Below are positions 15,348 to 32,487 of a stretch of 64,000 bases of DNA, piece by piece. The notes beneath the pieces were generated by a model. It saw only the letters and a program-made list of their open reading frames with translations. It was not told the origin of the DNA and ran no database searches. This DNA is from Paenirhodobacter populi (lineage in GTDB: Bacteria; Pseudomonadota; Alphaproteobacteria; Rhodobacterales; Rhodobacteraceae). The translations under genes were made by a program, and so were the position numbers. The stretch's first letter is position 1. Every line of letters starts with the position of its first letter. The DNA lies in NCBI RefSeq assembly GCF_004022215.1, contig NZ_SAUZ01000003.1, positions 1-64,000 of the forward strand, given 5' to 3'.

Positions 15348-16415
15348 TCAGGCTCCCTGACCGGCCGAACGCGCGATCATGCCGAACAGATCGCGCGGAT
15401 CGTCGGGATCGGCCAGCAGGTCCAGCGGCTCGACCATATCCGTCCCTTTCACCGCATCCAGCACGAACCGCAGGGCCGAGAAATCGGCGATCGCGAAGCC
15501 CACGGAATCGAACAGGGTGATCTGCCGGTCGGCGGTGCGGCCCGGCACCTCGCCGCGCATGACCTTCCACAGCTCGATCACCGGATGATCCTCGGGCAGT
15601 TGCTGGATCTCGCCCTCGATCCGGGTCTGCGGCGGATATTCGACGAAAATGTCGGACCGCCGCAGGATGTCGGCGTGCAGCTCCGTCTTGCCGGGGCAGT
15701 CGCCGCCGATGGCGTTGATATGCACCCCGGCGCCCACCATGTTGTCGGTCAGAACGGTGGCGTTCTGCTTGTCGGCGGTGCAGGTGGTGATGATCTGCGC
15801 CCCCTCGACCGAGGACTGGGCGGTGGCGCAGATGGTGATCTCGAACCCCAGCCCCTTCAGATTGCGCGCGGCCTTTTCCGTCGCCGCCGGGTCGATGTCA
15901 TAGAGCCGCAGCCGCGTGATCCCGCACAAAGCCCGGAAGGCCAGCGCCTGAAACTCGCATTGCGCGCCGCAGCCGATCAGCGCCATCACCTCGGCCCCCT
16001 TCGGCGCGAGGTAGCGCCCCACCAGCCCCGAGGTCGCCGCCGTCCGCAGCGCCGTCAGCACCGTCATTTCCGACAGCAGCAGCGGATAGCCAGTCGCCAT
16101 CGACGCCAGCACCCCGAAGGCCGTCACCGTCTGATAGCCGTGGCGCATGTTGCGCGGATGGCCGTTCACGTATTTGAAGCCGTAATGTTCGGCATCCGCC
16201 GTCGGCATCAGCTCGATCACCCCGTCGCGCGAATGGGCGGCGATGCGCGGCGTCTTGTCGAATTCCGGCCAGCGGCGGTAATCTTCCTCGATATAGCGGG
16301 CCAGATCGCGCAGCACGGATTCCGTTCCGCGCGCATTCAGCAGCCGCAACATGTTCGCGACCGAGACGAAGGGCACAAGGGCGCGGTCGGACGGGGCTAG
16401 GGACATGTCGGTCAT
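15348..16415 (-). CDS. ocd: Ornithine cyclodeaminase
   Basis: This 355-residue enzyme of the OCD/mu-crystallin family converts L-ornithine to L-proline and ammonia with bound NAD. Visible marks are the substrate region FKYVNGHPRNMRHGYQTVTA, the nucleotide-binding LIGCGAQCEFQALAF, and HINAIGGDCPGKTELHADIL, which includes the catalytic Asp. Its length is typical. The start shares one base with the arginase stop (TGATG), so arginine to ornithine to proline is encoded as one unit. An Lrp regulator with palindromic sites is divergent from it. Confidence 0.92.
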   Translation of the reverse strand: MTDMSLAPSDRALVPFVSVANMLRLLNARGTESVLRDLARYIEEDYRRWPEFDKTPRIAAHSRDGVIELMPTADAEHYGFKYVNGHPRNMRHGYQTVTAFGVLASMATGYPLLLSEMTVLTALRTAATSGLVGRYLAPKGAEVMALIGCGAQCEFQALAFRALCGITRLRLYDIDPAATEKAARNLKGLGFEITICATAQSSVEGAQIITTCTADKQNATVLTDNMVGAGVHINAIGGDCPGKTELHADILRRSDIFVEYPPQTRIEGEIQQLPEDHPVIELWKVMRGEVPGRTADRQITLFDSVGFAIADFSALRFVLDAVKGTDMVEPLDLLADPDDPRDLFGMIARSAGQGA

Positions 16416-17341
16416 CAGAAACTCCGGGTCATACGGTCAAGGACGCGGCGGCCGAACAGGCTCGCGGTGAAATCGCGCAGCACCTTGGCGGTGCGGCCCT
16501 TTTCATCAAGGAACGGGTTCAGCTCCACCAGATCGAGCGAGCGCACCAGCCCGGAATCGCCAAGCGTTTCCATGATCAGATGCGCCTCGCGGAAGGTGGC
16601 GCCGCCCGGCACCGTGGTGCCGACGGCGGGGGCGAAGGACGGGTCGAGGAAATCGACATCGAAGCTGACATGCAGGATGCCCTCGGCGGCGCGGACCCGG
16701 GCGAGGAAGGCCTTGAGCGGGGCCATCACGCCGGTCTCGTCGATGGCGCGCATGTCGTTGACCTCGATCCCGGTTTCCTTGATGCGCGCGGCCTCGGCCG
16801 GATCGACGGAACGGATGCCCATCATGCAGACGTTGCGCGGGTCGATCGGATGGGCGTTCGGCGGATAGGGCGCGAAATCGGCCAGCCCGCAGGCATAGGC
16901 CATCGGCGTGCCGTGGAGGTTGCCGCTGGCCGTTGTGTCGAGCGTGTGCAGGTCGGGATGCGCATCCAGCCACAGCACGAACAGCGGCCGGCCCAGTTCC
17001 GCCGCGCGGCGCGACACGCCGGGGATGGTGCCCGCGGACATCAGGTGGTCGCCGCCCATGAAGATCGGCAGGTCGCTGTCGCGCGCCGCCGCATAGGCGC
17101 GCCCGGTCAGCAGCTCGACCCAGGCGCTGGCCTCGGCCAGATCGTGGATCGCCTTGTTCGGATGCGCGATCGGCGCGCGCGGCGGGATCGAGAGATCGCC
17201 CTGATCCGTCACCTTCCAGCCGAGCTCGGTCAGCGCCTGCACGAAGCCCGCCGTCCGCAGGCTCTGCGGCCCCATGATGCAGCCGGGCTGCGAGGCGCCG
17301 ATCTGGATCGGGGCGCCGAGGATGATACTGGTTCCGGCCAT
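16415..17341 (-). CDS. rocF: Arginase
   Basis: This 308-residue binuclear manganese enzyme hydrolyses arginine to ornithine and urea. The metal-binding motifs are present: MGGDH, DAHPDLHT and SFDVDFLDPSFAPAVGT. ATG 17341 is chosen because the extra N-terminal frame upstream overlaps the palindromic regulatory region and has no homology. Directly downstream is ornithine cyclodeaminase, and a CphA/cyanophycinase pair lies 7 kb away, which fits use of arginine released from cyanophycin. Agmatinase is less likely given the arginase-type DAHPDLHT spacing and the OCD partner. Confidence 0.92.
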   Translation of the reverse strand: MAGTSIILGAPIQIGASQPGCIMGPQSLRTAGFVQALTELGWKVTDQGDLSIPPRAPIAHPNKAIHDLAEASAWVELLTGRAYAAARDSDLPIFMGGDHLMSAGTIPGVSRRAAELGRPLFVLWLDAHPDLHTLDTTASGNLHGTPMAYACGLADFAPYPPNAHPIDPRNVCMMGIRSVDPAEAARIKETGIEVNDMRAIDETGVMAPLKAFLARVRAAEGILHVSFDVDFLDPSFAPAVGTTVPGGATFREAHLIMETLGDSGLVRSLDLVELNPFLDEKGRTAKVLRDFTASLFGRRVLDRMTRSF

Positions 17342-17405
17342 GTCGCTGTCTCCGAGGGAATCCGAGGGATGCCCAACTCTGCCAGATCGGGGACCGGGGC
17401 GTCTC

Positions 17406-17449
17406 TTGCCAATTTGGCCAATTCGGGTATCCATTGCGCGAATTGGCAA
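17406..17449. promoter_or_regulatory. Palindromic site between arginase and Lrp gene
   Basis: TTGCCAATT (17406-17414) and AATTGGCAA (17441-17449) form an exact inverted repeat with a 26-bp spacer. The related half-palindrome AATTTGGCCAATT overlaps the left arm. Lying between the divergent rocF and lrp-like genes, it is a likely binding site of the adjacent Lrp-type regulator. Confidence 0.6.
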
Positions 17450-17464
17450 GGGATGTTGACCGAT

Positions 17465-17893
17465 ATGACGGATCTTTCCTCAACCGACCGGGCGATCATC
17501 GCGGCGCTCAGGGCGAATGCGCGGCTGTCGATCACCGATCTGGCCGCGACGGTGGGCATTTCGCGCACAACCGCGCGCACCCGGCTGGAATCGCTGGTGG
17601 CCGAGGGCCGCATCCGCCGCTTCACCATCGAGACGGATACCGACGCCGAGGGGGAAGTGCGCGCCATCACCCTCGTGCAGTTGCAGGGCAGGATGTCGCG
17701 TGCGGTGATCCGTGCGATCAACCGCATCCCGCAGGTGACCACGGTCCATTCCACCAATGGCGCATGGGATCTGGTGGTGGAAATCCGCGCCGACTCGCTG
17801 CCCGAATTCGACACGGCCCTGCGCGAGATCCGCGAGGTTCCGGGGGTGACCAACAGCGAAACCTGCCTGCTGCTGGCGCATGCGACGGGCTGA
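17465..17893 (+). CDS. Lrp/AsnC family regulator, next to arginase
   Basis: The product is 142 residues. It has an N-terminal AsnC helix-turn-helix (LSITDLAATVGISRTTARTRLESL) and a C-terminal RAM domain (from about residue 65, ending ETCLLLA) that binds amino acids. ATG 17465 with AAGGGA upstream is preferred over ATG 17453. Divergence from rocF-ocd and the shared palindromes suggest that it activates the arginase operon in response to arginine or ornithine, as related regulators (PutR, AruR-like) do. The effector is inferred. Confidence 0.88.
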   Translation: MTDLSSTDRAIIAALRANARLSITDLAATVGISRTTARTRLESLVAEGRIRRFTIETDTDAEGEVRAITLVQLQGRMSRAVIRAINRIPQVTTVHSTNGAWDLVVEIRADSLPEFDTALREIREVPGVTNSETCLLLAHATG

Positions 17894-17959
17894 TCCGCGC
17901 ACGGAACAGGCAACCGCGTTGTATTGGCGGATCGCGCGGGGCAAGGGATGAAATTTTTC

Positions 17960-18006
17960 TTGACTGAAAATCATTCATGAAAGTTATCTGTCAAAATCTT
18001 TCATGA
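17960..18006 (+). promoter_or_regulatory. Promoter and operator of the RpiR operon
   Basis: TTGACT (17960) and TTATCT (17984) are spaced 18 bp and form a plausible sigma-70 promoter. An exact 9-bp inverted repeat, TCATGAAAG (17975-17983) and CTTTCATGA (17998-18006), overlaps the -10 region and ends 10 bases before the start codon. A repressor bound there would block transcription, so autoregulation by the RpiR protein is likely. Confidence 0.7.
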
Positions 18007-18016
18007 GCCCGACCCG

Positions 18017-18895
18017 ATGACCCAGAGCCTGCGCCAGAGACTGACCGAAGCCGCCCGGGGCACCGGCTCCGCACAGGCGCTGGCCAGCTACATGCTCAAC
18101 GCCTTGCCGGAGCTGCCCTTCCTGTCCGCCGCCGCGCTTGGCGACAAGGTCGGTGTCAGCGAGGCGACGGTCGGCCGCTTCTGCCGTCAGCTGGGCTACG
18201 CCAACCTGCGCGACCTCAAGGCGCATCTGCGCGACGACATCGGCGACGCGCCGTGGCTCCTCAGCGACCGGCTGCACGAATTGCGCGGCAGCGACGGCGA
18301 AGAGGCGCTGGCCCGCGGGCTGGAACTGGAAATCGCCGGGCTCGTGCGGATCTACGAACAGGCGCGCAGCCCGGACTGGGCGCGCACCGCCGAACGGCTG
18401 GCGCGGGCGCGGCAGGTCTTCGTCGCCGGGTTCCAGACCGAACGCGGCATCGCCCAGTATTTCGCCGTGCAACTGCAATATCTGCGCGACGGGGTGCGGC
18501 TTGTCGATCTGGCCGCCGGCAATTTCGCCGAGGTGCTGGCCAGCGACATTCCCGCCGGGGACACCTGCCTGATCGTGTTCGAGGGCCGCCGCTATTCCCG
18601 CCTCGCCAAGGTCCTGACCGCCGAGGCCCATGCCCGCGGCATCCCCGTCACCCTGATCACCGACGGCTTCTGCGGCTGGGACACCGGCCTGACCGACGCC
18701 ACCTTCCGCGCCGCGACGCAGGTGAACCAGTTCTGGGATTCGACCGCGCAGATGGCGGTGCTGGGCAACCTGCTGATCCACAGCGTCTTCCTGTGCATCG
18801 GGCCGGAGGTGGCCGGGCGGCTGGAGCGCGTGTCGAAACTATACGCCGCGATGATCGGCCATGTGGGCGATCCCGTCGGCGGACTGAAATCTTGA
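18017..18895 (+). CDS. RpiR/MurR family regulator
   Basis: The product is 292 residues. The N-terminal RpiR helix-turn-helix (about 1-80, GDKVGVSEATVGRFCRQLGY) is followed by a SIS domain (about 120-260; VFVAGFQTERGIAQYFAVQL, then DTCLIVFEGRRYSRLAK), the usual sensor for phosphosugars. It heads an operon for amino acid uptake and a racemase rather than sugar genes. Some RpiR members near amino acid genes sense other ligands, so the inducer is open. The next gene starts 22 bases downstream. Confidence 0.88.
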   Translation: MTQSLRQRLTEAARGTGSAQALASYMLNALPELPFLSAAALGDKVGVSEATVGRFCRQLGYANLRDLKAHLRDDIGDAPWLLSDRLHELRGSDGEEALARGLELEIAGLVRIYEQARSPDWARTAERLARARQVFVAGFQTERGIAQYFAVQLQYLRDGVRLVDLAAGNFAEVLASDIPAGDTCLIVFEGRRYSRLAKVLTAEAHARGIPVTLITDGFCGWDTGLTDATFRAATQVNQFWDSTAQMAVLGNLLIHSVFLCIGPEVAGRLERVSKLYAAMIGHVGDPVGGLKS

Positions 18896-18917
18896 GAAAC
18901 CCAACAGGAGAAACCGG

Positions 18918-19688
18918 ATGTTCCGCAAACTGACCGCCCTCGCGGCGCTGATGACCGCGCTGGCCGCCCCCGCCGGGGCCGAGACCCTGCGCCTTGGCAC
19001 CGAGGGCGCCTACCCGCCCTTCAACTTCATCACCCCGGACGGCAAGGTCACCGGCTTCGACGTGGAAATCGGCCTCGCCCTGTGCGAAAAGATGGGCGTG
19101 ACCTGCGAGGTCGTCGCGCAGGACTGGGACGGCATCATCCCCGGCCTTCTGGCGAAGAAATACGACTTCATCATCGCCTCGATGTTCATCACCGAGGAAC
19201 GCAAGAAGCAGGTGGCCTTTTCCGACCCCTACTACATGGCGGCGATGACCCATGTGGTGCCGAAGGAGTCCGGAATCACCGAATTCACCCCCGAAACGAT
19301 GAAGGGCAAGGTGATCGGCGCGCAGGCGGGCACGACGCAGGCCGACTATATCACCGCGCTGTATCCCGACGCCGACATCCGCCTCTATCCGACGCAGGAC
19401 GACGCCAACCTCGACATGGCGTCGGGGCGGATCGACCTTGAGGTGGGCGACATGCTGCCGATGCTCGACTGGACCACGAACACCGAGGATGGCGCCTGCT
19501 GCGAACTGGCGGGCGAACCGATCACCGATCCGGCCTTCGTCGGCGACGGCGTCGGCATCGCGCTGCGCCCCGCCGATACCGATCTGCTGGCACGCATGAA
19601 CGCCGCGCTCAAGGAAATCCGCGACGACGGCACCTACAAGGCGATCAACGACAAATACTTCCCCATCGACGTCTATACGATGAAGTGA
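18918..19688 (+). CDS. Polar amino acid ABC transporter, binding protein
   Basis: This is a 256-residue periplasmic binding protein of the family 3 (HisJ/ArtJ/LAO) type. Its signal peptide (MFRKLTALAALMTALAAPAGA) is cleaved after residue 21. The mature protein shows LRLGTEGAYPPFNF, the lobe hinge FDVEIGLALCEKMGVTCEVV, the signature IIASMFITEERKKQVAFSDPYY and the C-terminal DDGTYKAINDKYFP. Basic amino acids are the commonest ligands of this group, which suits the arginine context. The two permeases follow at once, but no ATP-binding gene does. Confidence 0.9.
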   Translation: MFRKLTALAALMTALAAPAGAETLRLGTEGAYPPFNFITPDGKVTGFDVEIGLALCEKMGVTCEVVAQDWDGIIPGLLAKKYDFIIASMFITEERKKQVAFSDPYYMAAMTHVVPKESGITEFTPETMKGKVIGAQAGTTQADYITALYPDADIRLYPTQDDANLDMASGRIDLEVGDMLPMLDWTTNTEDGACCELAGEPITDPAFVGDGVGIALRPADTDLLARMNAALKEIRDDGTYKAINDKYFPIDVYTMK

Positions 19689-19698
19689 GGCGCGACGG

Positions 19699-20406
19699 AT
19701 GACCGATCTTTTCGCCTGGGGGGACGCGGGCTGGGGGGACGAGATCCTGTTCGGGGCTCTCACCACCATCCGCCTCGCGCTCGTCTCGCTGCCCGTCGGG
19801 CTGGCGATCGGTCTGACCGTCGCGGCGCTGTCGATGGCGCAGAGCCGCGTGGCCCGCGCCATCGCCACGGGCTACACCACGCTGATGCGCGGCCTGCCCG
19901 AGATCCTGACGCTGTTCATCGTCTACAACGGCGTCGGGATGCTGATAAACGTGGTCTCCGGCTGGATCGCGCCCGATGCGCGGCCGCCGGAACTCAGCCC
20001 CTTCATCGCCGGTGTCGCCGCGCTGGCGATGGTCTTCGGCGCCTTTTCCGCCGAGGTGATCCGCGGCGCCTTCACCGCCCTCGACAAGGGCCAGACCGAG
20101 GCCGCGCGGGCCTTTGGCATGCGGCCGGTGCAGATCCTGTTCCTCGTGCAATTGCCGCAGGTCTGGCGGCTGGCGCTGCCCGGACTTGGCAATCTGTGGA
20201 TCAACATGCTCAAGGATACGGCGCTGGTCTCGGTCATCGCGCTGGATGAACTGATGCGCGCCACCAAGGTCGCCATCGGCGTGACCAAGCAGCCCTTCAC
20301 CTTCTACCTGATCGCCTGCCTGATCTACTGGGGCCTGTCGGTCGCCTCGGAAGTCGGGCTCGCGCGGATGGAACGTCGCGCCAACCGCTACGTGGTGAAA
20401 CGCTGA
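19699..20406 (+). CDS. Polar amino acid ABC transporter, permease 1
   Basis: This 235-residue inner-membrane protein is HisQ-like. It has about five hydrophobic segments and the EAA loop EAARAFGMRPVQILFLVQLPQ, which should dock an ATPase. It starts 10 bases after the binding-protein gene and overlaps the second permease by one base (TGATG). It pairs with permease 2 to form the membrane channel. Confidence 0.9.
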   Translation: MTDLFAWGDAGWGDEILFGALTTIRLALVSLPVGLAIGLTVAALSMAQSRVARAIATGYTTLMRGLPEILTLFIVYNGVGMLINVVSGWIAPDARPPELSPFIAGVAALAMVFGAFSAEVIRGAFTALDKGQTEAARAFGMRPVQILFLVQLPQVWRLALPGLGNLWINMLKDTALVSVIALDELMRATKVAIGVTKQPFTFYLIACLIYWGLSVASEVGLARMERRANRYVVKR

Positions 20407-21104
20407 TGCATCCGATAGAAATCCTCACGGCGAACCTGCCCGCGCTGCTCGACGGGCTGTGGATGACGATCAAGCTGACGGGCCTTGGCGCGATCGCGGC
20501 AGGGCTCTGCGCGCCGTGGCTGGCGCTGGCGCGGGCGAACGGGCCGCGTTGGGCGCAATGGGGGCTGAGGGGCTATATCTCCTTCATCCGGGGCACGCCG
20601 ATCCTCGCGCAGCTGTTCCTTGTCTTCTACGGCTCGGGCCAGTTCCGCCCCTTCCTGACCGACATTGGACTGTGGTCCTTCTTCCGCGATCCGTTCAACT
20701 GCGCGCTTCTGGTCTTCGCCGTCAATTCTTGCGCCTACCAGACGGAAATCCTGCGTGGCGCCATCTCCGCCGTGCCGCGCGGTCAGATCGAGGGCGCCCA
20801 TGCCCTTGGCCTGAAACGCTGGCAGGTGCTGCGCTTCATCACCTTTCCGAACGCCTACCGCATGGCGTGGCCCGCGCTCGGCAACGAGGTGATCCTGCTG
20901 ATGAAGGCCTCGGCGCTCGCCTCCATCGTCACGGTGTTCGAGCTGATGGGCCGCACGCGGCAGATCTTTTCGCGCAGCTTCGATCTGTCGGTCTATCTCT
21001 GGGCCGCGGTCTTCTATCTGGCGCTGACCGCCGGTTTCGTCTTTCTCTGGCGTCTGGCCGAACGGCGCCTGTCCCACCATTTGCGTCAAGGAGATGCCCC
21101 ATGA
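20406..21104 (+). CDS. Polar amino acid ABC transporter, permease 2
   Basis: This 232-residue HisM-like permease has the FIRGTPILAQLFLVFYG segment common to this family and an EAA loop, EGAHALGLKRWQVLRFITFP. Its stop overlaps the racemase start by four bases (ATGA), which ties transport and the racemase into one translation unit. The ATPase subunit expected here is missing from the operon, and none of this type occurs elsewhere in the window. Confidence 0.9.
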   Translation: MHPIEILTANLPALLDGLWMTIKLTGLGAIAAGLCAPWLALARANGPRWAQWGLRGYISFIRGTPILAQLFLVFYGSGQFRPFLTDIGLWSFFRDPFNCALLVFAVNSCAYQTEILRGAISAVPRGQIEGAHALGLKRWQVLRFITFPNAYRMAWPALGNEVILLMKASALASIVTVFELMGRTRQIFSRSFDLSVYLWAAVFYLALTAGFVFLWRLAERRLSHHLRQGDAP

Positions 21105-22228
21105 CCGCCCTTTTCCCCGGCCTGAAGATCGAGTCCGCCGAATTGCGGCTGATCCGCCTGCCGCTGCTGACACCCTTCGTGATCTCGACCGGCACGATGA
21201 CCGAAAAGCACATCCTGCTGCTGACGCTCCGCGCCGAGGGGATCGAGGGCTATGCCGAAGGCGTCATGGACCCCTACCCCGACTATCTGGAGGAAACGAT
21301 TTCCGGTTCGCTGACCTTCCTGCGCGAGGTGATCCTGCCGCAGGTGATCGGCAGGCGCTTTGCCAATGCCGCGGAACTGGGCGCGATCCTCGACCCGTGG
21401 CGCGGCCACCGGATGGCCAAGGCGATGGTCGACATGGCGATGTGGGACCTCTGGGCCAAGGCGCTGAACCTGCCGCTGAGCGTGGCGCTCGGCGGGGTGC
21501 GGGAGGCGGTCGACACCGGCGTCAGCCTTGGCATCGCCGACATTCCCACCACCCTCGCCCGTGTCGAAAGCGCCGTGCAGGCGGGCTACAGGCGCATCAA
21601 GCTCAAGATCAAGCGCGGCCATGACCTCGACATGCTCGCCGCCGTGCGCGACCGCTTTCCCCACGCCAAGCTGACGGTCGACGCGAATACCGATTACCGG
21701 CTGACGGACCTGCCGCTGCTGAAGGCGATGGACGATTTCGGGCTGGATTACATCGAACAGCCGCTCGCCTTCGACGACATCCACGACCATGTGAAGGTGC
21801 AGGAAAAACTGCTGACCGCGATCTGCCTTGACGAAAGCATCCGCTCCGCCACCGATGCGCGCAAGGCGCTGGTGGCAGGCGCCTGCCGGGTCATCAACAT
21901 CAAGGTCGGCCGCGTCGGCGGGCATACGATGGCCCATGCGATCCATGACCTCTGCGCCACCTTCGACGTGCCCGTGTGGTGCGGCGGGATGCTCGAGGCC
22001 GGGATCGGCCGCGCCCACAACATCCACCTCTCGACGCTGGCGAATTTCACCAAGCCGGGCGACGTTTCCTCGGCCAGCCGCTATTTCCCGCGCGATATCG
22101 TCAACGAACCGCTTGAAGTCGAGGCCGGCCGCATGGCCGTGCCGAAGACCGGGCCGGGCATCGGCGTGACGCTGGACCGCGCCTTCCTCGACACTGTCAC
22201 CGGCCTGCGCGAGGACATCACCCCATGA
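21101..22228 (+). CDS. N-succinylamino acid racemase-type enolase superfamily enzyme
   Basis: This 375-residue protein belongs to the OSBS/NSAR (MenC) branch of the enolase superfamily. The catalytic pair K167-x-K169 (IKLKI), the metal ligands D194 (LTVDAN), E219 (DYIEQP) and D244 (ICLDES), and K268 (INIKVGR) are all present. The tail VWCGGMLEAGIGRAHNIHLS is typical of N-acyl/N-succinyl amino acid racemases. No other menaquinone gene is present. The next gene, joined by ATGA, is a COG3375-type GNAT protein; such pairs run the succinyl-CoA-driven D-to-L amino acid conversion known from Geobacillus. Racemase function is therefore favoured over o-succinylbenzoate synthase. Confidence 0.85.
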   Translation: MTALFPGLKIESAELRLIRLPLLTPFVISTGTMTEKHILLLTLRAEGIEGYAEGVMDPYPDYLEETISGSLTFLREVILPQVIGRRFANAAELGAILDPWRGHRMAKAMVDMAMWDLWAKALNLPLSVALGGVREAVDTGVSLGIADIPTTLARVESAVQAGYRRIKLKIKRGHDLDMLAAVRDRFPHAKLTVDANTDYRLTDLPLLKAMDDFGLDYIEQPLAFDDIHDHVKVQEKLLTAICLDESIRSATDARKALVAGACRVINIKVGRVGGHTMAHAIHDLCATFDVPVWCGGMLEAGIGRAHNIHLSTLANFTKPGDVSSASRYFPRDIVNEPLEVEAGRMAVPKTGPGIGVTLDRAFLDTVTGLREDITP

Positions 22229-22923
22229 CGGTCGAACTGCGCGAACTCGCCTCGCTGACCGAGCTGAAAGAGGCCGAAACCCTGCAACAACGGGTCTGGG
22301 GCGAGGGCGACAAGCCCGACAATTCCGATATCATGCTGGCGATCCAGCATGAGGGCGGGCTGGTCGCCGGGGCCTTCGCCGACGGGCGGATGCTGGGCTT
22401 TCTCTTCGCCTTCCCCTCGGCCACGCCGGGGGTGCAGCATTCGCACCGGCTGGCGGTGCTGCCCGAGGCGCGCGGCATGCGGCTTGGCGCCCGGCTGAAA
22501 TGGTTCCAGCGCGACTGGGGCCTTGCGCGCGGGGTGCGGCTGGTGCGCTGGACCTATGACCCGATCCGCGCGGTGAACGCCGGGCTGAACATCGCCGGGC
22601 TGGGCGCGGTCTCGACCACCTATCACTGCGACTATTACGGCGAGATGGAGGGGATCAACGCGGGCCTTCCCTCGGACCGGATCGTGGCGGACTGGCATCT
22701 GGAGGCCCCGGGTGTCGCCGCGCGGGCCGGTGGCGCCCGCCCCGCGCCGCCCGAGGGCGCGCGCATCGCCATTCCGCGCGATATCGACGCGCTGATCGCA
22801 TCTGATCCGCAGGCCGCGCTCGCCGCCCGGATGGCGCTGCGCGGCACCCTTCTGTCGGCTTTCGGCGAAGGGCGCGGGATCATCGGCTTCGACACCCGGA
22901 CGGCGGAATATGTGATCGGCTAG
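22225..22923 (+). CDS. GNAT acyltransferase, candidate D-amino acid N-succinyltransferase
   Basis: This 232-residue COG3375-type GNAT protein has the acyl-CoA site HSHRLAVLPEARGMRLGARL and the conserved run RWTYDPIRAVNAGLNIAGLG, then NAGLPSDRIVADW. Members beside N-succinylamino acid racemases have been shown to succinylate D-amino acids. Here the gene overlaps the racemase by four bases and is the last gene of the RpiR operon. Its stop overlaps by four bases the stop of the convergent deacylase gene at 22920. Assignment of the succinyl donor and D-amino acid acceptor is by context. Confidence 0.8.
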   Translation: MTVELRELASLTELKEAETLQQRVWGEGDKPDNSDIMLAIQHEGGLVAGAFADGRMLGFLFAFPSATPGVQHSHRLAVLPEARGMRLGARLKWFQRDWGLARGVRLVRWTYDPIRAVNAGLNIAGLGAVSTTYHCDYYGEMEGINAGLPSDRIVADWHLEAPGVAARAGGARPAPPEGARIAIPRDIDALIASDPQAALAARMALRGTLLSAFGEGRGIIGFDTRTAEYVIG

Positions 22924-24005: not shown

Positions 24006-24009
24006 CGGA

Positions 24010-24335: not shown

Positions 24336-26546
24336 TCAGCCGTGAAGATCGCGGATGCTCTCGATATCAAGAAGCCCCGTGCCGTCGGAGTTGGACGTGT
24401 AGCGCAGCGCGATGCGCGGCTCATGCCCCGGATCGGGGCCGAACGTCGGGGTGACGTCGCCGCAGCAATCGCGGATCAGCTCGGCCACCAGCCCGTCCAG
24501 CACCGCCGCCGCCGCGGGCACCGGGGCATGGCGGGCGACGGCGCCGGTCTTGAGTTCGATGATATCGCCCGGCTGGGCAAAGCTCAACCGCGTGCCCGGC
24601 GCGATGAAATCGTCACCCTGCAGTTCGCTTTTCATCTGGTCGATCTCCACCAGAACCGCGCCGCGGCTGCCGATCACCGTCAGCAGGCTGTTGTCGTGGT
24701 TGGCGATCACGCCGCTGTCCTCCAGCAGGCCAAGGCCGAAGCGCACGCCCTCTTCGGCGCAGGCGACGGCAAGGCGGCCCAGACGGCGCGACGAGGCCAT
24801 GTTCTGGTCGATGATCGCCGGGCCGAAGAAGCCGAGCCCTTCCTGGATCACCAGCCCGCGCCGCCCCATGTCCGAGGCGATGCCGAAGCGCAGCGCCTCA
24901 TACGAAGATCCGCCGCCGATCATGAACCCCGACAGCGCCGAGGCCGCCCCGCTGATGCCGACGATCATCCCCCCGGCCGCATGCGCCCGCGCGATGGCCG
25001 ACAGGATCGGCGTCACCTCGCCCCGGTGCAGCAGCGCCTCGACCAGCCGGATCTGGTTGCCGCCGGTCAGGATGATGGTGCGCAGCGTGGCGATCCGCTC
25101 GATCAGCGCCTCGTCCCGGGCCAGCCGGTCCACGTTGTCGATGGTGATGCGCAGATCGACCGCCTCGACCCCCTTGTCGCGCAGCGCGCGGATGTAGTCA
25201 TGCGCCGTCTCGCGCGGTTCGGCGGAGGCGGCGGCGATCACGCCCACCGGCCCCGAACATTGCGCCGCCATCTGCGCAAGCAGCACCGAATCCCGCTGCA
25301 GGGGGGCGGAGCCCAGCATCATCAGCCGCGCCTGCTTGACAGGCTTCACCCCGTAATCGCGCGCAAGCGCCGTGCGCCGGTTCGCCGCCAGCTGCGCCGC
25401 GTTCAGCTTGCGCGTCTGCAGGGCGGCGCGGAAATCCACCGCCGTCATGCGGAAATCCCGCTGCCGGTCAAGGATCAGCGCCTCGGCCATGCCGCCTTCG
25501 CGCGACAGCTCCACACTTGTCGCGCAACCGGTCTTGGGTTCGACGGCGCGCGCCCGGTCCGCGGGATAGCGGGCCGGATCGCCCAACACCAGCCGCGCCA
25601 TCAGATCATAGAGCGTATAGGCGCCAAAGACGTTGCGCAGCGTCCGCGCGGGCGAGCAATAGGCGATGTCGCGCGCCGTCACCGGGCGCTTGCCCGGCCC
25701 CGGCTCCACCTGCGTCCCGGTCAGGTCGAACCCGTCGCCGTGGTCGAGGTAACTGATGCCGATATTCTCGATCAGCCGGCGCCGCCGGTCGTGCCGCGCG
25801 GCCTGCATGTCCAGCACGAAGACGCCGTATTCGCCGATCACCCGCGCCTGCGTGCCCTCGACGAACAGGGCGGTATTCTCATCGACGCCAAAGCCGCGTT
25901 TCGTGCCGCTGGCCATCAGACCGACCGCCAGCCGCCCGAAACGGCCGCGCTTGATGAAATGCTGATCGACCATGCCCCAGGGAAAGAAGCCAAGCCCCTC
26001 GGCCAGCAGCATCCCCGGCTTTTGCGGATCCGTCACCACGCCATAGGTCGCGGCCTCGAGCGAGGTGCCGCCCGAGATCATCACCTCGGACATGATGGCG
26101 GCGCCCGCGCTCGACCCGGCGACAAGGCCCCCCGCGGCCAGCGTCTTGCGGATCGCCTTCAGCACCGGGCTCGCCTTGCCGCCCGGCGCCAGCGCCCCGG
26201 TGATCAGCGCCTGATCGCCCCCGGTGAAATAGACCGAGCCGTAATCCCCGACCAGTTCCGCCACGGCCTTGTCCCGCGCGGCCGCCCCGGCACCGGGGCC
26301 ATGCACGGGCGACAGCACCGCGTCGAATCCGTGGGCACGGAACACCTCGACCGTTTCGGGGCCGACCGCCTCGGGTTCCGACGAGGCGGTGGCAAAGACC
26401 ACGATCCGCCCGCCCGACAGGCGGTGCATCTCGGCGTAGATGGCGGCGTTGTCGTCTTCGAGACGGCCGCCGATGACCGCGAGCTTCGGCGCGGCGCCCC
26501 TGTCCGGGGGCAGGTTCTTCTGTGTCATTTCGGTCGGGCCGGTCAC
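24336..26546 (-). CDS. cphB: Tandem (two-domain) cyanophycinase
   Basis: This 736-residue protein is built of two cyanophycinase-like S51 domains; single enzymes are about 270-400 residues. Numbering is from GTG 26546 (GTGA overlap with cphA); ATG 26528 is an alternative. Domain 1 (about 20-340) has the full triad: Ser146 in GSSAGA, His196 in VDQHF, Glu223 in VDENTA. Domain 2 (about 405-700) keeps the frame of the fold, with LTGGNQ for FTGGDQ. It has GISGAA around Ser532 and Asn582 where the His should be (DQN), so it is probably inactive. Cyanophycinase cuts the Asp-Arg polymer to beta-Asp-Arg dipeptides. The second half may bind the polymer or shape the dimer. Confidence 0.88.
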   Translation of the reverse strand: MTGPTEMTQKNLPPDRGAAPKLAVIGGRLEDDNAAIYAEMHRLSGGRIVVFATASSEPEAVGPETVEVFRAHGFDAVLSPVHGPGAGAAARDKAVAELVGDYGSVYFTGGDQALITGALAPGGKASPVLKAIRKTLAAGGLVAGSSAGAAIMSEVMISGGTSLEAATYGVVTDPQKPGMLLAEGLGFFPWGMVDQHFIKRGRFGRLAVGLMASGTKRGFGVDENTALFVEGTQARVIGEYGVFVLDMQAARHDRRRRLIENIGISYLDHGDGFDLTGTQVEPGPGKRPVTARDIAYCSPARTLRNVFGAYTLYDLMARLVLGDPARYPADRARAVEPKTGCATSVELSREGGMAEALILDRQRDFRMTAVDFRAALQTRKLNAAQLAANRRTALARDYGVKPVKQARLMMLGSAPLQRDSVLLAQMAAQCSGPVGVIAAASAEPRETAHDYIRALRDKGVEAVDLRITIDNVDRLARDEALIERIATLRTIILTGGNQIRLVEALLHRGEVTPILSAIARAHAAGGMIVGISGAASALSGFMIGGGSSYEALRFGIASDMGRRGLVIQEGLGFFGPAIIDQNMASSRRLGRLAVACAEEGVRFGLGLLEDSGVIANHDNSLLTVIGSRGAVLVEIDQMKSELQGDDFIAPGTRLSFAQPGDIIELKTGAVARHAPVPAAAAVLDGLVAELIRDCCGDVTPTFGPDPGHEPRIALRYTSNSDGTGLLDIESIRDLHG

Positions 26547-29284
26547 TCTTGCGGGGCGATCAGCACGCCGCGTTCGTCGGAAATCACCGTATAGCCCGCC
26601 GGGATGTCAAAGGCGGTCTCGGCCATGCGCCGGGCCACGGTATCTTCCTCGGGCGCGCCGAAGGCCGGGGTGAAATGGATGATCTGCTTCCACGACCGGG
26701 TGATGTTTTCGCAGAAGAACAGGATCAGGTCGTCACGCTGCGCCTGTTCCAGCGCGGCGGCAAGGGCCTTGTCCTCTTCCTCGATGATGGTGATGGCGGC
26801 GGGATCCACGCCCTGCGCGATCAGCGCGGCCTGCATCAGGCGCGGCATTTCATCCGGGGCACGGCCGCGCACGTTGTCATCGCGGTGGCAGATGTAGCTG
26901 TCGAAATGACCCGCGACCTTGGCGGCGATGGCGGTCACGTCCTCGTCCCGCCGGTCGCCCGGGCAGGTGACGCAGACGATGCGCCGCCCGCGCGGCTTCA
27001 GCCGGTCCACCAGATCGACCATCGCGGCCACGGCGGCCTCGTTGTGGCCATAGTCGAGGATCACGCGGAAGCCATGTTCGTCGAACACGTTCATCCGGCC
27101 CGGAGACTGGAAGAAGGTGTTGTCGAAGGTCCGCAGCCCCTGCCGGATCTGGTCCAGCGTCTTGCCGAGCGCAAAGGCCATCCCCGCCGCGAACATGGCG
27201 TTTTCCACGTTGTGCAGCGCCTTGCCTTCCAGCGTCGCGGGGATCAGATGCGTCCAGATCAGCGGCATCTGCGTGCCGTTTTCGTAGATCACGATCTGGT
27301 CGCCGTTCATCCCCTGTTCCAGCACGATCGCCCGCTTGCCCAGCCGGATATGTTCGCGCACCAGTTCATGGTCCGGGTTGCGGGTCACATACATGATCTG
27401 TTTCGCGGGGGAATGGGCGGCCATCTTCAGCGTATATTCGTTGTCGGCGTTCAGCACCACGGTATCGCGCGTCACCTCGGCGATCACCCGCTTGACCCGC
27501 GCCAGCCCGTCGAGCGTGTCGACCCCGCCCAGCCCGAGGTGGTCCGAGGTCACGTTTAGCACCGCCCCCACGTCGCAGAAATTGTAACCGAGCCCCGAGC
27601 GCACGATGCCGCCCCGCGCCGTTTCCAGCACCGCGATGTCCACCGAGGGATCGCGCAGCACCATCTTGGCCGAGACCGGCCCCGTCATGTCGCCCTTCAC
27701 CGTGACATTGCCGTCGATCATCACCGCATCGGTCGAGGTCTGGCCCACCACATGCCCCGCCATCTTGAGGATATGCGCCAGCATCCGCGAACAGGTGGTC
27801 TTGCCGTTGGTGCCGGTCAGCGCCGCGATCGGCACGCGCGACTGGCTGCCCGGCGGGAACAGCATGTCGATGATCGCGCCGCCCACGTCGCGCGGCTTGC
27901 CCTCGGAGGGCGCGATATGCATCCGCAGGCCGGGGCCGGCGTTGATCTCGCAGATGCCGCCGCCGGTTTCGCGGTAGCTGCGGGTGATGTCGGTGGTCAG
28001 GAAATCCACCGCGCCCACGTCAAGCCCGATCGCCCGGATCGCGCGTTCCGCCATCAGCTTGTTGTCCGGGTGGATCGTGTCGGTCACATCGACCGCCGTG
28101 CCGCCGGTCGAGATGTTGGCGGTCTTGCGCAGATAGACCTCTTCGCCCTCGGGCGGCACGGTTTCGGTCGTGTAGCCGCGTTCCTCCAGCAGCCGCAGCG
28201 CCTGTTCGTCGAGTTCGAGCCGCGTCAGCACGTTCTCATGCCCGATGCCGCGGCGCGGATCCTGATTCACGATCTCGACCAGTTCGGCGATGGTGCTGCG
28301 CCCGTCGCCCTTCACATGGCCGGGCACCCGGCGGGCGGCGGCGACCAGCGTGCCGTTCACCACCAGAAGCCGGTGATCGTCGCCGCGCAGCATGGTTTCC
28401 ACGACGACGGCCGAGCCTTCGGCATCGGCGGTGGCGAAGGCCGCGGGAACGCCCTCCTCACCGGTGATGTTCACCGTGACGCCGCGCCCGTGATTGCCGT
28501 CGAGCGGCTTGATCACCACCGGATAGCCGATCCGGTCGGCAGCCCCCAGAGCCTCGTCGACATCATAGACCAGCCGCTGTTTCGGCACCGGCAGGCCAAG
28601 ATCCGACAGGATCTGGTTGCACATGTTCTTGTCCGAGGCGAGCTCGACGGCGATATGCGAGGTCTGCGAGGTCAGCGCCGCCTCGATCCGCTGCTGATAC
28701 TTGCCCTGCCCGACCTGAATCAGGCTGGCGTCGTTCAGCCGGTAGACCGGAATGTCGCGCGACCGCGCCGCCCGCACCAGCTCCATCGCCGAAGGACCGA
28801 GCGAGCGTTTTTCCGCGTAGATCAGGAAATCCTCGACATCGTCGTCCAGCACCGGCTCCGGCTCGCCCTCCTCCGGGTCGGCGGCACGGGCGATGGCGGC
28901 GAGCATGTCGCAGGCGACCTCACCGGCTTCGAGCCCGATATCCTCGTTCTCGTAGCTGTAGAAGACCTCGACCAGATCCGGTTCGTCCGAGGGTTCGGAC
29001 CATGCGAGGTCACCGTCGATCCCCGCCGCGCGCTGCAACTGCAGCGCGAGCTTCGCCACCAGATCGCCGACCGACAGCGCCGCGCCGTCGCGCAGCGCGG
29101 CGATCCAGTCCGCCTCGTCGCGCGCGAAACCGGGCAGAACCTCCGCCAGACGGTCCGCCACCGCGGGGCCAAGGGCGCGCAGCGCCTCGGCGTAGCGCGG
29201 CTTGACGTCGAGGCCAAGCCGGATCACCGGCGCACTGGCATGGACATTGGGACCGACATAGACAGAGGTGGAATCGATATTCAT
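26543..29284 (-). CDS. cphA: Cyanophycin synthetase CphA
   Basis: This 913-residue CphA polymerises Asp and Arg into multi-L-arginyl-poly-L-aspartate with ATP. Domains in order are an N-terminal domain (1-160), an ATP-grasp domain (about 209-470; YPVVIKPLDGNHGRGVT and CEINAGPGLRMHI) that adds Asp, and a Mur-ligase-like domain (from about 485). The Mur-ligase-like domain adds Arg and carries the P-loop GTNGKTT at 491-497 and VLNVTSDHLG. Length and motifs match functional CphA1 enzymes. The start is 76 bases after the USP stop. The cyanophycinase gene overlaps its stop, so synthesis and breakdown enzymes are translated from one message. Confidence 0.95.
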   Translation of the reverse strand: MNIDSTSVYVGPNVHASAPVIRLGLDVKPRYAEALRALGPAVADRLAEVLPGFARDEADWIAALRDGAALSVGDLVAKLALQLQRAAGIDGDLAWSEPSDEPDLVEVFYSYENEDIGLEAGEVACDMLAAIARAADPEEGEPEPVLDDDVEDFLIYAEKRSLGPSAMELVRAARSRDIPVYRLNDASLIQVGQGKYQQRIEAALTSQTSHIAVELASDKNMCNQILSDLGLPVPKQRLVYDVDEALGAADRIGYPVVIKPLDGNHGRGVTVNITGEEGVPAAFATADAEGSAVVVETMLRGDDHRLLVVNGTLVAAARRVPGHVKGDGRSTIAELVEIVNQDPRRGIGHENVLTRLELDEQALRLLEERGYTTETVPPEGEEVYLRKTANISTGGTAVDVTDTIHPDNKLMAERAIRAIGLDVGAVDFLTTDITRSYRETGGGICEINAGPGLRMHIAPSEGKPRDVGGAIIDMLFPPGSQSRVPIAALTGTNGKTTCSRMLAHILKMAGHVVGQTSTDAVMIDGNVTVKGDMTGPVSAKMVLRDPSVDIAVLETARGGIVRSGLGYNFCDVGAVLNVTSDHLGLGGVDTLDGLARVKRVIAEVTRDTVVLNADNEYTLKMAAHSPAKQIMYVTRNPDHELVREHIRLGKRAIVLEQGMNGDQIVIYENGTQMPLIWTHLIPATLEGKALHNVENAMFAAGMAFALGKTLDQIRQGLRTFDNTFFQSPGRMNVFDEHGFRVILDYGHNEAAVAAMVDLVDRLKPRGRRIVCVTCPGDRRDEDVTAIAAKVAGHFDSYICHRDDNVRGRAPDEMPRLMQAALIAQGVDPAAITIIEEEDKALAAALEQAQRDDLILFFCENITRSWKQIIHFTPAFGAPEEDTVARRMAETAFDIPAGYTVISDERGVLIAPQE

Positions 29285-29360
29285 TCAGGGTTCCTCATTG
29301 GACTCCGGTCTTTGTCTGGTCGCGACAGCGGCGGAACCGGGCACCGCTGCGCCTGAGGGA

Positions 29361-30245
29361 TCAGCCGGCCGGGCGCGGAATGACGATGCGCGGCACCGGG
29401 GCGAACCGCGCGATCTTGCCCGAGTTGGAGCCGAGAAAGACCCGCAGGAACGGGCCAAGATGGCTCGACCCGATCACGATCAATTCGTTCTCGAGCCAGC
29501 CGATGCTGTCAATCGCGGCCTTCCATGTCGGCCCGTCGCCCAGCACACTTTCGGGCGCGGCGCCGTCTTTCCAGGCGTCGCGGATGCCGTCCTGCACCGC
29601 CTGCGCCTGCGCGCGAAGCTGATTCGAGACAAGGTTTTCCGCGTCATAGCCCGCGCCGGTCGGATACATCTGCTTGTCGCGCACGATGAAGCTGGCGAGC
29701 CGCAGCGGGACCTTGAACGCGGTGGCAAAGATCCGCGCCTCGGCGATGACACCGGATGCGTCGTTCGCGGCGGTGACGGTGCAGGTGATGCGGCTGATCC
29801 GCGCGCCCTCCGCCGCCGTATAGCCGCGCGGCGCCAGGATCACCGGGCGCGTCGAGCTGTGCAGGATCTCGGTTGCCGTGGTGCCTTCGGCAAAGCGGCC
29901 CAGCACCGCCGTCCGCGCCGAGCCGAGCACGACCCCGTCGACGTCGAATTCCTCCGCCGCGTCGCGCAGCCCCTTGCCCGCCAGACTGGCGGTGCGGGAC
30001 AGGAATTCCGCCTCGATCCCCTCGGGCAGCCCGGCCCGGGCCGAGGCCAGCGTTTTCGCAGCGTGTTTCTCAAGGAATTGCGCATATTCCGCGTCGACCC
30101 GGGCGGGCGAGGGATGGTCCCATCCCTCGGGATGCACGGTCACGACGATCAGCCGGCCACCGCTCGACCTTGCCAGCGTGGCGGCCAGAGCCAGCGCCTC
30201 GCGCCCGCCCTTGTCCGCCGTATACCCGACCAGAAGCTTCATCAT
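29361..30245 (-). CDS. Tandem universal stress protein
   Basis: The product is 294 residues with two UspA folds. The first (1-145) starts LLVGYTADKGGREALALA and ends GSARTAVLGRFAEGTTATEILHSS; the second (about 150-294) ends VIGSSHLGPFLRVFLGSNSGKIAR. The G-x2-G-x9-G(S/T) ATP-binding pattern is recognisable in both. Its ATG lies within the permease stop overlap (ATGATG), so it is translated with that transporter. Paired USP domains often occur next to permeases and may sense energy state; the actual role here is unknown. Confidence 0.88.
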   Translation of the reverse strand: MMKLLVGYTADKGGREALALAATLARSSGGRLIVVTVHPEGWDHPSPARVDAEYAQFLEKHAAKTLASARAGLPEGIEAEFLSRTASLAGKGLRDAAEEFDVDGVVLGSARTAVLGRFAEGTTATEILHSSTRPVILAPRGYTAAEGARISRITCTVTAANDASGVIAEARIFATAFKVPLRLASFIVRDKQMYPTGAGYDAENLVSNQLRAQAQAVQDGIRDAWKDGAAPESVLGDGPTWKAAIDSIGWLENELIVIGSSHLGPFLRVFLGSNSGKIARFAPVPRIVIPRPAG

Positions 30246-31699
30246 GCGTCACCACGTTTCTCGAGCCGCGAATGCCGCGCCGAATAGACGAAATAGAAGG
30301 TGCCCGCGATGATAGCCCAGATCGCCGTGATCTTGAAAACAATGAGCGACAGGCTGGAAATCAGATAGAGGCACATGATGATGCTGAGGATCGGCAGCAG
30401 CGGGAACAGCGGCACCTTGAAGCCGCGCGGCGCGTCGGGCCGGGTATAGCGCAGCACGATCACCCCGATCGACACCACGGTAAAGGCCACCAGCGTGCCC
30501 ATGCTGGTCAGGTCCCACAGCACGTCCGACGGCAGGAAGGCGGCGATCGCCGCGACGCAGCAGGCGACGACGAAGGTGTTCACCGTCGGCGTCATCGTAT
30601 GCGGGTTCACCTTGCTGAACACCGGCGGCAGCATCCCGTCGCGCGACATGGCGAACAGGATCCGCGTCTGGCCGTAAAGCACCACCAGCGTCACCGACAG
30701 GACCGAGATCACCGCCCCCGCCGCCAGCACGATCGCCGGCCAGCGCGAGCCGGTGATGTTTTGCAAGATCGTGGCGAGGCCCGCCTCCTGCCCCTCGAAA
30801 TCCGCCTGCGCCTGCGCGCCGAGCGCGGCAAAGGCGACAAGGATGTAGAACCCCGCCACGATCACCAGCGCCAGCCCGATCGCCAGCGGCAGGTTGCGCC
30901 GCGGGTTTTCCACCTCGTCCCCCGCCGTCGAAACCGCATCGAGCCCGATGAAGGTGAAGAAGATCGATCCCGCCGCCATCGAAACGCCGGTGAAGCCGTT
31001 CGGGGCGAAGGGCGTCATGTTGTCGCTGTTGAACGCCGTCAGCGCGATGATGATGAACATCGCCAGCACGCCGAGCTTGACGCAGACCATGATCGCATTC
31101 GCCCGCGCGGATTCGCGCGAGCCGCGCGTCAGCAGCAGGCAGCACAGGAAGACGAGGCAGGCCGCCGGCAGGTTGATCAGCCCGTCGCCGCCGAAATGCA
31201 GCGCATAGCCCTCGGCCACCAGCGGCGCGGACAGCAGCGCGCGGGGCAGTTCCAGCCCGGTCACGTTCCAGATCAGGTTGTGCAGATATTCCGACCAGCC
31301 GACACTGACCGCCGCCGCCGAAATCCCGTATTCCATGATCAGGCAGGCCGCGACCAGAAACGCCACCCCCTCGCCGAGCGTCGCATAGGCGTAGGAATAG
31401 GAGGAGCCCGAGACCGGGATCATCGAACTCATCTCGGCATAGCACAGCGCGGTCAGCCCCGCCGCGATCCCGGCGATGAGGAACGAAAACAGCACCGCGG
31501 GCCCCGCGACGGGCACCTGCTCGCTCAGCACGAAGAAAATACCGGTGCCGATCGTTGCGCCGACACCGAACATCGTCAACTGGAACAGCGTGATCGAGCG
31601 GCCGAGGCTGTGGCCGTCGTCGGGCGTGGCGGAATCGGAAACATAGGTGTCGATGGGCTTCTTGCGCAGAAGGCGCTGCCCAAGGCTGGTTTGCGTCAT
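30242..31699 (-). CDS. APC family amino acid permease
   Basis: This 485-residue integral membrane transporter has about 12 hydrophobic segments, starting after an N-terminal tail with GHSLGRSITLFQLTMFGVG. The conserved first helix GATIGTGIFF and the SFLIAGIAAGLTALCYAE stretch place it with cationic amino acid transporters (CAT/YfnA-like), which suits arginine or ornithine uptake. ATG 31699 follows AGGGACAG and is preferred over the longer frame. It is first in the USP-cphA-cyanophycinase operon and divergent from an Lrp regulator. Confidence 0.9.
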   Translation of the reverse strand: MTQTSLGQRLLRKKPIDTYVSDSATPDDGHSLGRSITLFQLTMFGVGATIGTGIFFVLSEQVPVAGPAVLFSFLIAGIAAGLTALCYAEMSSMIPVSGSSYSYAYATLGEGVAFLVAACLIMEYGISAAAVSVGWSEYLHNLIWNVTGLELPRALLSAPLVAEGYALHFGGDGLINLPAACLVFLCCLLLTRGSRESARANAIMVCVKLGVLAMFIIIALTAFNSDNMTPFAPNGFTGVSMAAGSIFFTFIGLDAVSTAGDEVENPRRNLPLAIGLALVIVAGFYILVAFAALGAQAQADFEGQEAGLATILQNITGSRWPAIVLAAGAVISVLSVTLVVLYGQTRILFAMSRDGMLPPVFSKVNPHTMTPTVNTFVVACCVAAIAAFLPSDVLWDLTSMGTLVAFTVVSIGVIVLRYTRPDAPRGFKVPLFPLLPILSIIMCLYLISSLSLIVFKITAIWAIIAGTFYFVYSARHSRLEKRGDA

Positions 31700-31980
31700 A
31701 TATCTGTCCCTGTTGAAAATTTTCCGGCCGGTGTCCGGCCCGCTTTTTTTCAAGAGCTAGCATATGACCCACGGGAAATCCTGTTGTTGTTCCCCGCCTG
31801 CGCCCCAGATGCTGCGCCGCAGAAGGCTTCCGGAAACAGATGTTATCGCGAACATCCCTGGCTGCGTGAATCACAGACGGCGCCGGGCGGGCGGGACGAG
31901 TCGGAGAAGATCTTGACGCTGTCGGCGGCGGGCCGCACGATCCACAGGCAGCCCCCGACCGTCAGCCAGACCGGAGCGTC
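31700..31980. promoter_or_regulatory. Divergent promoter region, permease and Lrp genes
   Basis: These 281 bases separate the cyanophycin operon from the plus-strand Lrp gene and must hold both promoters. A short GC hairpin (GGCCGG 31726-31731, CCGGCC 31735-31740) lies in the leader of the permease and is followed by T7 on the plus strand only. No clear palindrome for the Lrp protein was found by eye. Confidence 0.5.
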
Positions 31981-32487
31981 ATGAAAGACAACAACAAAGC
32001 ACTCTCGCTCGACAAGATCGACATCAGGATCCTGGAACGTCTTCAGGCCAACGGTCGCATGACCAATCAGGAACTGGCCGATGCCGTCGGTCTTTCCGCC
32101 AGCCCCTGCCTGAACCGGGTGCGGCGGCTGGAAAGGGCGGGCATCATCACCGGCTACAATGCGCAGATCGCCCTGTCGAAGGTCTGCCGCCATGTCGACG
32201 TCATCGCGGCGGTCACGCTGAAGGCGCATGCCCCCGAGGATTTCGAAGTGTTTGAAAAGATGGTCATGTCAATGCATTTCGTGACGGAATGCACCAAGGT
32301 CAGCGGCCCGATCGACTATCTGGTGCATTTCGTCTGCCCGGACATCTCGGCCTATCAGATGCTGTCGGACGATCTGCTGATCATGGGGCCGAAGATCGCC
32401 AACCTGTCCAGCTACATGGTTCTGAAAACCGTGAAACCCTATCAGGGACCGGCGCTCGACAGCCTGCTGGCCTCTCCCACGCGCTGA
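31981..32487 (+). CDS. Lrp/AsnC family regulator, next to cyanophycin operon
   Basis: The product is 168 residues. An N-terminal helix-turn-helix (MTNQELADAVGLSASPCLNRVRRLE) carries the S-x-SPCL(N/R)RV pattern usual in Lrp-type regulators, and a RAM ligand domain follows (VIAAVTLKAHAPEDFEVFEKMV, then SGPIDYLVHFVCPD). GGAGCG precedes the ATG. Divergence from the permease-USP-cphA operon suggests that it controls cyanophycin synthesis in response to an amino acid, possibly arginine. It differs clearly from the Lrp gene at 17465. Confidence 0.88.
   Translation: MKDNNKALSLDKIDIRILERLQANGRMTNQELADAVGLSASPCLNRVRRLERAGIITGYNAQIALSKVCRHVDVIAAVTLKAHAPEDFEVFEKMVMSMHFVTECTKVSGPIDYLVHFVCPDISAYQMLSDDLLIMGPKIANLSSYMVLKTVKPYQGPALDSLLASPTR

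Follow-up and report, generated by a model that had tools for sequence, protein, structure and literature searches.

A cyanophycin gene cluster beside a putative D-amino-acid operon in Paenirhodobacter populi: probably two systems that meet at arginine

A 64,000-nucleotide stretch of the Paenirhodobacter populi genome (assembly GCF_004022215.1, contig NZ_SAUZ01000003.1, positions 1 to 64,000; hereafter the window) carries, side by side, genes for cyanophycin synthesis and breakdown, genes of arginine use and an operon encoding an enolase of the N-succinylamino acid racemase (NSAR) type and a GNAT acyltransferase, which raises the question whether all of these genes belong to a single pathway. 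A route for the irreversible conversion of D- to L-amino acids by a GNAT, an NSAR and an L-desuccinylase was described by Sakai et al. (2006, Biochemistry 45:4455), as cited in PMC8762209, and the original prediction for this locus was that the GNAT, the enolase and an AstE-type deacylase encoded next to them are its three steps, turning D-arginine or another basic D-amino acid into the L form, to be stored in cyanophycin or burned through ornithine to proline. The analysis reported here leads us to regard a different arrangement as probable, namely two adjoining systems that meet at arginine, a cyanophycin cycle and a separate D-amino-acid operon. The gene assignments from the ornithine cyclodeaminase (OCD) gene to cphA were made from the list of open reading frames (ORFs) together with hidden Markov model (HMM) and Protein Data Bank (PDB) searches, which bore out the placement first proposed (Table 1).

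The supposed AstE-type deacylase was compared with the PDB sequences and matched 8EIN and 8EIP at E ~1e-120. The same two entries were the best matches in a Foldseek search with its AlphaFold2 model (pLDDT 92.7), 8EIN ranking first with E=1.4e-50 and a TM score of 0.92, whereas the succinylglutamate desuccinylases proper (1YW4 and 1YW6) gave far weaker fold matches. According to their titles, both entries are structures of CphZ, the cyanophycin dipeptide hydrolase of Acinetobacter baylyi, 8EIP being the E251A mutant in complex. With 8EIN the window protein shares 57.7% identity in the BLAST alignment and 55-56% in the structural one; in the tree the two are sisters (support 100/98), a Haematobacter plasmid protein coming next. 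The catalytic glutamate is retained, as E231 aligns with A. baylyi E251, and H33, E36 and H159, which we take to be the HxxE...H zinc-ligand motif, are invariant in the family alignment. Because of its sister position to 8EIN and of the window's own cph neighbours, the protein is named CphZ, a predicted enzyme of the last step of cyanophycin breakdown and, on this evidence, no desuccinylase. This assignment agrees with PMC10206079, according to which proteins annotated as AstE/M14 in cph clusters hydrolyse beta-Asp-Arg/Lys, and the name is that given to the dipeptidase in PMC12661447. It follows that the three-enzyme D-to-L set is absent at the locus. An AstE-like protein found inside a cyanophycin locus is likely to be a dipeptide hydrolase, and its reading as a desuccinylase is a tempting error. 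On the Haematobacter plasmid (L099:11965-19425), the gene for the CphZ-branch protein has as neighbours an arginine deiminase operon and genes for a YfcC protein and an amino acid permease, and no cphA was annotated or matched in that stretch.

The genes for CphZ, the cyanophycinase and CphA are on the minus strand and point back at the RpiR-SBP-permease-permease-NSAR-GNAT operon (SBP, solute-binding protein), which is on the plus strand; those for OCD and arginase are on the minus strand. In the cycle proposed, CphA would make cyanophycin, the cyanophycinase would cut the polymer to beta-Asp-Arg, CphZ would split this dipeptide, and arginase and OCD would carry the arginine via ornithine to proline. 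The cyanophycin cycle thus appears complete, with enzymes assigned by homology, from which we infer their activity. That the cyanophycinase is double, as first proposed, was confirmed by two separate stretches matching TIGR02069. In its first half the serine motif reads GSSAGA; the counterpart in the second half is GISGAA, so that this half may be altered or inactive.

The enolase was also recognised correctly as of the NSAR type: it exceeds the TIGR01928 cut-off, its closest solved relatives are N-acylamino acid racemases, the best being 1R0M (presumably from Deinococcus radiodurans), and K167, K169, D194, E219, D244, K268 and R271 are invariant in 50 aligned sequences. Among these we take K169 and K268 to be the catalytic lysines, D194, E219 and D244 the metal ligands and R271 the second-shell arginine of racemases. 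Another protein, on the D. radiodurans plasmid MP1, is 58% identical to the window enolase, with a GNAT gene three genes on. An o-succinylbenzoate synthase (OSBS) of menaquinone synthesis would agree with the name of TIGR01928, and with the menC annotation of the plasmid relatives of the enolase. However, the GNAT partner and the solved relatives speak for a racemase, and an OSBS role is unlikely because no MenD reaches the cut-off in the window genome (best TIGR00173 score 73 bits, cut-off 244.2); this candidate was therefore rejected as extremely improbable. In the plasmid records the enolase of this conserved operon bears the annotation menC; the operon is more likely a D-amino-acid converter.

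NSAR loci were collected in a genome-contig scan (38 loci) and in a same-family survey (six genomes with a close NSAR), at an NSAR identity of at least 63%, and in a broader neighbourhood survey of 48 loci, in which L007-L009 are 4 kb pieces. A few of the loci are repeats, with identical NSAR in L036/L037 and in L027/L097, and for L039, L040 and L042 the downstream sequence is shorter than 4 kb. A GNAT match directly follows the NSAR gene at all 44 loci of the first two sets (38/38 and 6/6). Homologues of the window GNAT are encoded near NSAR in D. radiodurans (44% identity), D. ficus (39%) and Priestia megaterium (26%, E=2e-32), and the model of the window GNAT (pLDDT 93.7) has the GNAT fold, with only distant solved relatives. 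The GNAT step of the original prediction is supported by both this homology and this constant adjacency, and the NSAR with its usual partner would fit an acylation and racemisation of D-amino acids. The GNAT most likely acylates the D-amino acid, probably with succinyl-CoA, and NSAR would racemise the product; the acyl group would then have to be removed by an enzyme encoded elsewhere, perhaps an M20 hydrolase, with CphZ standing outside this path. At 21 of the 38 loci an operon of the order SBP-permease-permease-ATPase-NSAR-GNAT is found, mostly in Rhodobacterales and including strains DSM 1710 and SP108 of the laboratory species Rhodobacter capsulatus. One record labelled Nocardioides marinus (L022) carries a Leisingera-like NSAR operon and groups with L024 in the tree, and is probably a contamination of the public assembly.

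Beside NSAR, matches to CphA, cyanophycinase or CphZ were found at none of the 38 contig-scan loci and at none of the 48 loci of the broader survey. The family survey covered 198 genomes, the window's own included, with E limits of 1e-60 for NSAR, 1e-200 for CphA and 1e-60 for CphZ-like proteins, and yielded matches in 8, 7 and 5 genomes, respectively. Within the family, NSAR and CphA are both present only in the window genome and in G034, where they are ~650 kb apart; the five other same-family genomes with a close NSAR gave no CphA match. NSAR was found in 2 of 35 other genomes with a CphA or CphZ-like match (26 of the class, 6 of the family with CphA and 3 more of the family with a CphZ-like protein), namely G034 and G121, and was linked in none; 31 of the 35 were covered by a separate NSAR search (0 matches) and the other four by the family survey. 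Once the window genome is left out, the joint occurrence of CphA and NSAR does not exceed chance (p=0.17, or 0.20 with G127). At the thresholds applied, a genome of the same genus (G046) gave no match to NSAR, CphA or CphZ, and no OCD or Lrp1 match lay within the 20 kb fetched around its arginase gene (59% identity). A conserved linkage to cphA, as the original prediction implied, was thus not borne out by this survey: NSAR-GNAT is a module of its own, independent of cyanophycin. No coupling of cyanophycin with D-arginine was found in the titles of four papers that mention both, or among the papers listed from a largely open-access literature.

No desuccinylase was recognised in the locus. The L-desuccinylase of the known D-to-L pathway is an M20-type hydrolase. 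On a Priestia megaterium plasmid, genes for an RpiR regulator, an M20 amidohydrolase, a GNAT and an NSAR lie together, a layout that would be expected of that pathway; the window protein is of the AstE/CphZ type and the Priestia neighbour is an M20 protein. Among the downstream genes of the NSAR loci, as far as crude gene calls show, no family was common beyond close relatives. With the Priestia M20 protein as query, the 48 loci gave one 26% match (L041), and among the 48 relatives a good M20 match was found only by the Pseudochrobactrum NSAR, itself without a GNAT. The window genome has seven matches to this query, the best of 35% identity and none on the window's contig. The best one lies at C7:123772-124878, with the gene for a polar amino acid ABC ATPase (C7:125008-125751) nearby, and this M20 hydrolase is a candidate source of the missing deacylase. 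A chemically direct alternative would take N-succinyl-L-arginine from the GNAT and NSAR into the arginine succinyltransferase (AST) pathway via AstB, an enzyme that uses N2-succinyl-L-arginine. However, AstB (PF04996) had no match in the window genome, among 14 controls those of E. coli and Caulobacter matching, and unless the gene lies in an assembly gap the chance of such a route is negligible; it was rejected.

The arginine connection was assessed from the neighbours of NSAR in other genomes. In Paracoccus methylarcula (L035), genes for OCD, arginase, Lrp, RpiR, SBP, the permeases, an ATPase, NSAR and GNAT have the order and orientation of the window apart from the ATPase, with products 59-80% identical. 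Further downstream are genes for an agmatinase-family protein, an antiporter of the NhaC type (for which the ArcD model scores below its cut-off), a Na/Ala symporter and a flavin oxidase. The best solved relative of this oxidase is 3WE0, an L-amino acid oxidase/monooxygenase that we take to prefer basic amino acids. A 3WE0-like oxidase is encoded within 5 kb of the GNAT gene at 3 of the 38 loci, at 1 kb or less in L034 and L040, in opposite orientations, and at 4 kb in L035. It occurs in 6 of the 198 family genomes, with NSAR in two of the five others, a co-occurrence that, with the window genome dropped, gave p=0.0075 in Fisher's test (0.010 counting the 39%-identical NSAR of G127). OCD together with a close arginase was found beside NSAR at 1 of the 48 loci in addition to the window; an arginase-family match in L021 is weak (25%). 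Among the genomes examined, two lineages (the window's and P. methylarcula) have the operon beside OCD, arginase and Lrp genes, and the window alone has it beside cyanophycin genes. This tie of the NSAR operon to arginine use is suggestive, not strong. The arginine coupling of the original prediction keeps its circumstantial part, in the P. methylarcula block and the oxidase neighbours, and loses the conserved cphA linkage.

The same observations bear on another explanation, in which D-arginine is scavenged into cyanophycin with the help of another deacylase: GNAT and NSAR would give N-acyl-L-arginine, from which a hydrolase encoded elsewhere would free L-arginine to be stored or burned. The P. 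methylarcula block, the basic-amino-acid oxidase neighbours and the M20-type matches, the best of them close to an ABC ATPase gene, are in its favour. Against it are the ABC transporter without its ATPase, the putative nature of the D-arginine substrate and the addition of cyanophycin in the window genome only, and we consider it rather unlikely. A more general form is that the operon serves, mostly in Rhodobacterales, for salvage of D-arginine (or D-ornithine or D-lysine), with an unlinked hydrolase freeing the acyl-L form and, in the window genome, L-arginine being stored as cyanophycin or degraded by arginase and OCD. We hold this to be doubtful; if true, the known D-to-L pathway would have here a branch that is specialised in basic amino acids and wired into nitrogen storage. 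A basic amino acid would be the likeliest substrate of the operon. The proposed module of two D-amino-acid steps, possibly tied to arginine, appears to be a reasonable lead.

The transporter of the operon was examined in the same loci. The SBP has as its best PDB match 3TQL, an arginine-binding protein, and the polar amino acid ABC transporter originally proposed holds for the SBP and the two permeases but not for an ATPase, which is absent in the window between permease 2 and NSAR. An ATPase gene occupies that place at all 21 contig-scan loci with SBP and both permeases, and also in G114 (L068). These ATPases of the relatives are 77-100% identical to a Sulfitobacter ATPase, whereas the closest one elsewhere in the window genome is 58% identical. 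In the window, the stop codon of permease 2 overlaps the start codon of NSAR (21095-21110), and an assembly error is an unlikely cause of the missing gene. In L068, the ATPase and NSAR genes begin with the same six bases; these shared start bases could explain a clean deletion of the ATPase gene. A chimeric operon, with Brucellaceae-like NSAR-GNAT and Rhodobacterales ABC genes, had been suspected from differing identities and was dropped. The unrooted trees of SBP and permeases and of NSAR and GNAT attach the window at the same place, although support at the forks close by is modest (62/84 and 68/73), and because of this agreement loss of a single gene is simpler than a hybrid operon. Uptake by the ABC system of the window needs a borrowed ATPase, or the system is defunct.

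Several observations weigh against the two-system reading, and some of them favour its rivals. Two of the four family genomes with CphZ-like proteins, G034 and G121, also have NSAR, without linkage but more often than chance allows (p=0.0045, window genome dropped), and some AstE-like protein could yet serve the NSAR module. This is the one result leaning towards the three-step D-arginine pathway of GNAT, enolase and AstE-type protein feeding cyanophycin, apart from the adjacency of NSAR and GNAT and the genes for arginine storage and use next door. However, the CphZ-like proteins of G034 and G121 are 40-45% identical, fall outside the CphZ branch and are encoded beside peptide-ABC ATPase genes, the third protein of the window is a predicted CphZ transcribed against the NSAR operon, and the other NSAR loci and CphA/CphZ-like genomes show no linkage, which together make the three-step pathway very unlikely. 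The AstE-like proteins of this kind from three same-family genomes (L065, L066 and L067) are 40-45% identical to CphZ, with peptide-ABC ATPase genes within 10 kb, and two of these three genomes have NSAR elsewhere. AstE-like matches of ~50% identity were found in 26 other genomes among 385 of the class, and none of 20 stretches around such matches (20/20) contained a CphA or cyanophycinase match, some of these stretches ending at contig ends and the search for CphA being confined to them. The wider AstE-like family at this level need not be CphZ; the window protein, by contrast, belongs to the CphZ branch and is encoded within a cph cluster.

The constancy of the NSAR-GNAT pair also has its exceptions, since the NSAR proteins of a Pseudochrobactrum plasmid (L098, 62%) and of L012 (G127, 38-39%) have no GNAT match and for that of a Sulfitobacter plasmid (L138) the GNAT match is partial. 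The L098 NSAR gene has as neighbours genes for an M20 peptidase, a gamma-glutamyltransferase and a peptide ABC transporter, a setting that suggests that the racemase is used differently there. Few loci underlie the arginine linkage (the window, L035, L034 and L040), two of which, L034 and L040, are in one sub-clade, and the SBP misses the TIGR01096 cut-off. Other NSAR-GNAT loci adjoin M81 peptidases and peptide ABC transporters, not arginine genes: an M81 (MlrC-type) peptidase is present at 13 of the 48 NSAR loci (L044, L046, L047, L064, L069, L137, L014-L019 and L021), the first six of which also have a peptide-transport binding protein (at least 67% identity). These neighbours may indicate a salvage route for peptides with D-residues. 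They favour an operon for other D-amino acids, aromatic or aliphatic, taken for example from such peptides, with the arginine neighbourhood being accidental, as does the GNAT characterised by Sakai et al., which acts on aromatic D-amino acids according to PMC8762209. Against it stand the Lys/Arg/Orn-like character of the recurring SBP and the repeated presence of arginine-related genes near the operon; we regard this explanation as possible but not favoured, and retain as probable the reading of a cyanophycin cycle and a separate D-amino-acid operon that meet at arginine.

Table 1. Features of the locus, with coordinates in the window
Feature	Coordinates	Strand	Evidence
Ornithine cyclodeaminase (OCD)	15348..16415	-	NF005762 561 bits, cut-off 350; 77% identical to L035
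Arginase	16415..17341	-	TIGR01229 287 bits, cut-off 227.6; 72% identical to L035
AsnC/Lrp-type regulator, divergent from arginase	17465..17893	+	PF01037, HTH_24; 73% identical to L035
RpiR/SIS-type regulator, first NSAR-operon gene	18017..18895	+	PF01418, PF01380; upstream in 18/21 relatives with ABC genes
Family-3 solute-binding protein (SBP), Lys/Arg/Orn-like	18918..19688	+	PF00497; TIGR01096 229.5 bits, below cut-off 256.35; best PDB match 3TQL, E=7.6e-49
ABC permease 1	19699..20406	+	PF00528
ABC permease 2	20406..21104	+	PF00528; stop overlaps NSAR start
N-succinylamino-acid-racemase-type enolase (NSAR/OSBS subfamily)	21101..22228	+	TIGR01928 320.4 bits, cut-off 200.65; 1R0M E=4e-125
GNAT acyltransferase, usual NSAR partner	22225..22923	+	PF00583; GNAT fold
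Predicted CphZ, cyanophycin dipeptide (beta-Asp-Arg) hydrolase	22920..24005	-	8EIN/8EIP; tree
Cyanophycinase, two homologous halves	24336..26546	-	TIGR02069 in two stretches; halves 30% identical; 7UQV
Cyanophycin synthetase CphA	26543..29284	-	TIGR02068 991 bits, cut-off 850; 7LGN
UspA-like protein	29361..30245	-	ORF reading only
APC-type amino acid permease, start codon uncertain	30242..31753	-	ORF reading only
Second AsnC/Lrp-type regulator	31981..32487	+	ORF reading only

The locus can be compared with three known systems. With the CphA-cyanophycinase-CphZ clusters, as presented in PMC10206079, the window shares the adjacency of all three genes; it differs from them by the added arginase, OCD and D-amino-acid operon and by its two-halved cyanophycinase. 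As in the known D-to-L pathway, the NSAR-type enolase and a homologous GNAT are encoded side by side, whereas a recognised desuccinylase is lacking, an amino acid ABC system is part of the operon and the substrate assignment is putative. The third system is the SBP-permease-permease-ATPase-NSAR-GNAT operon of the relatives, with which the window shares the gene order and a similar place in the trees of the ABC proteins and of NSAR and GNAT, and from which it differs by the absence of the ATPase gene.

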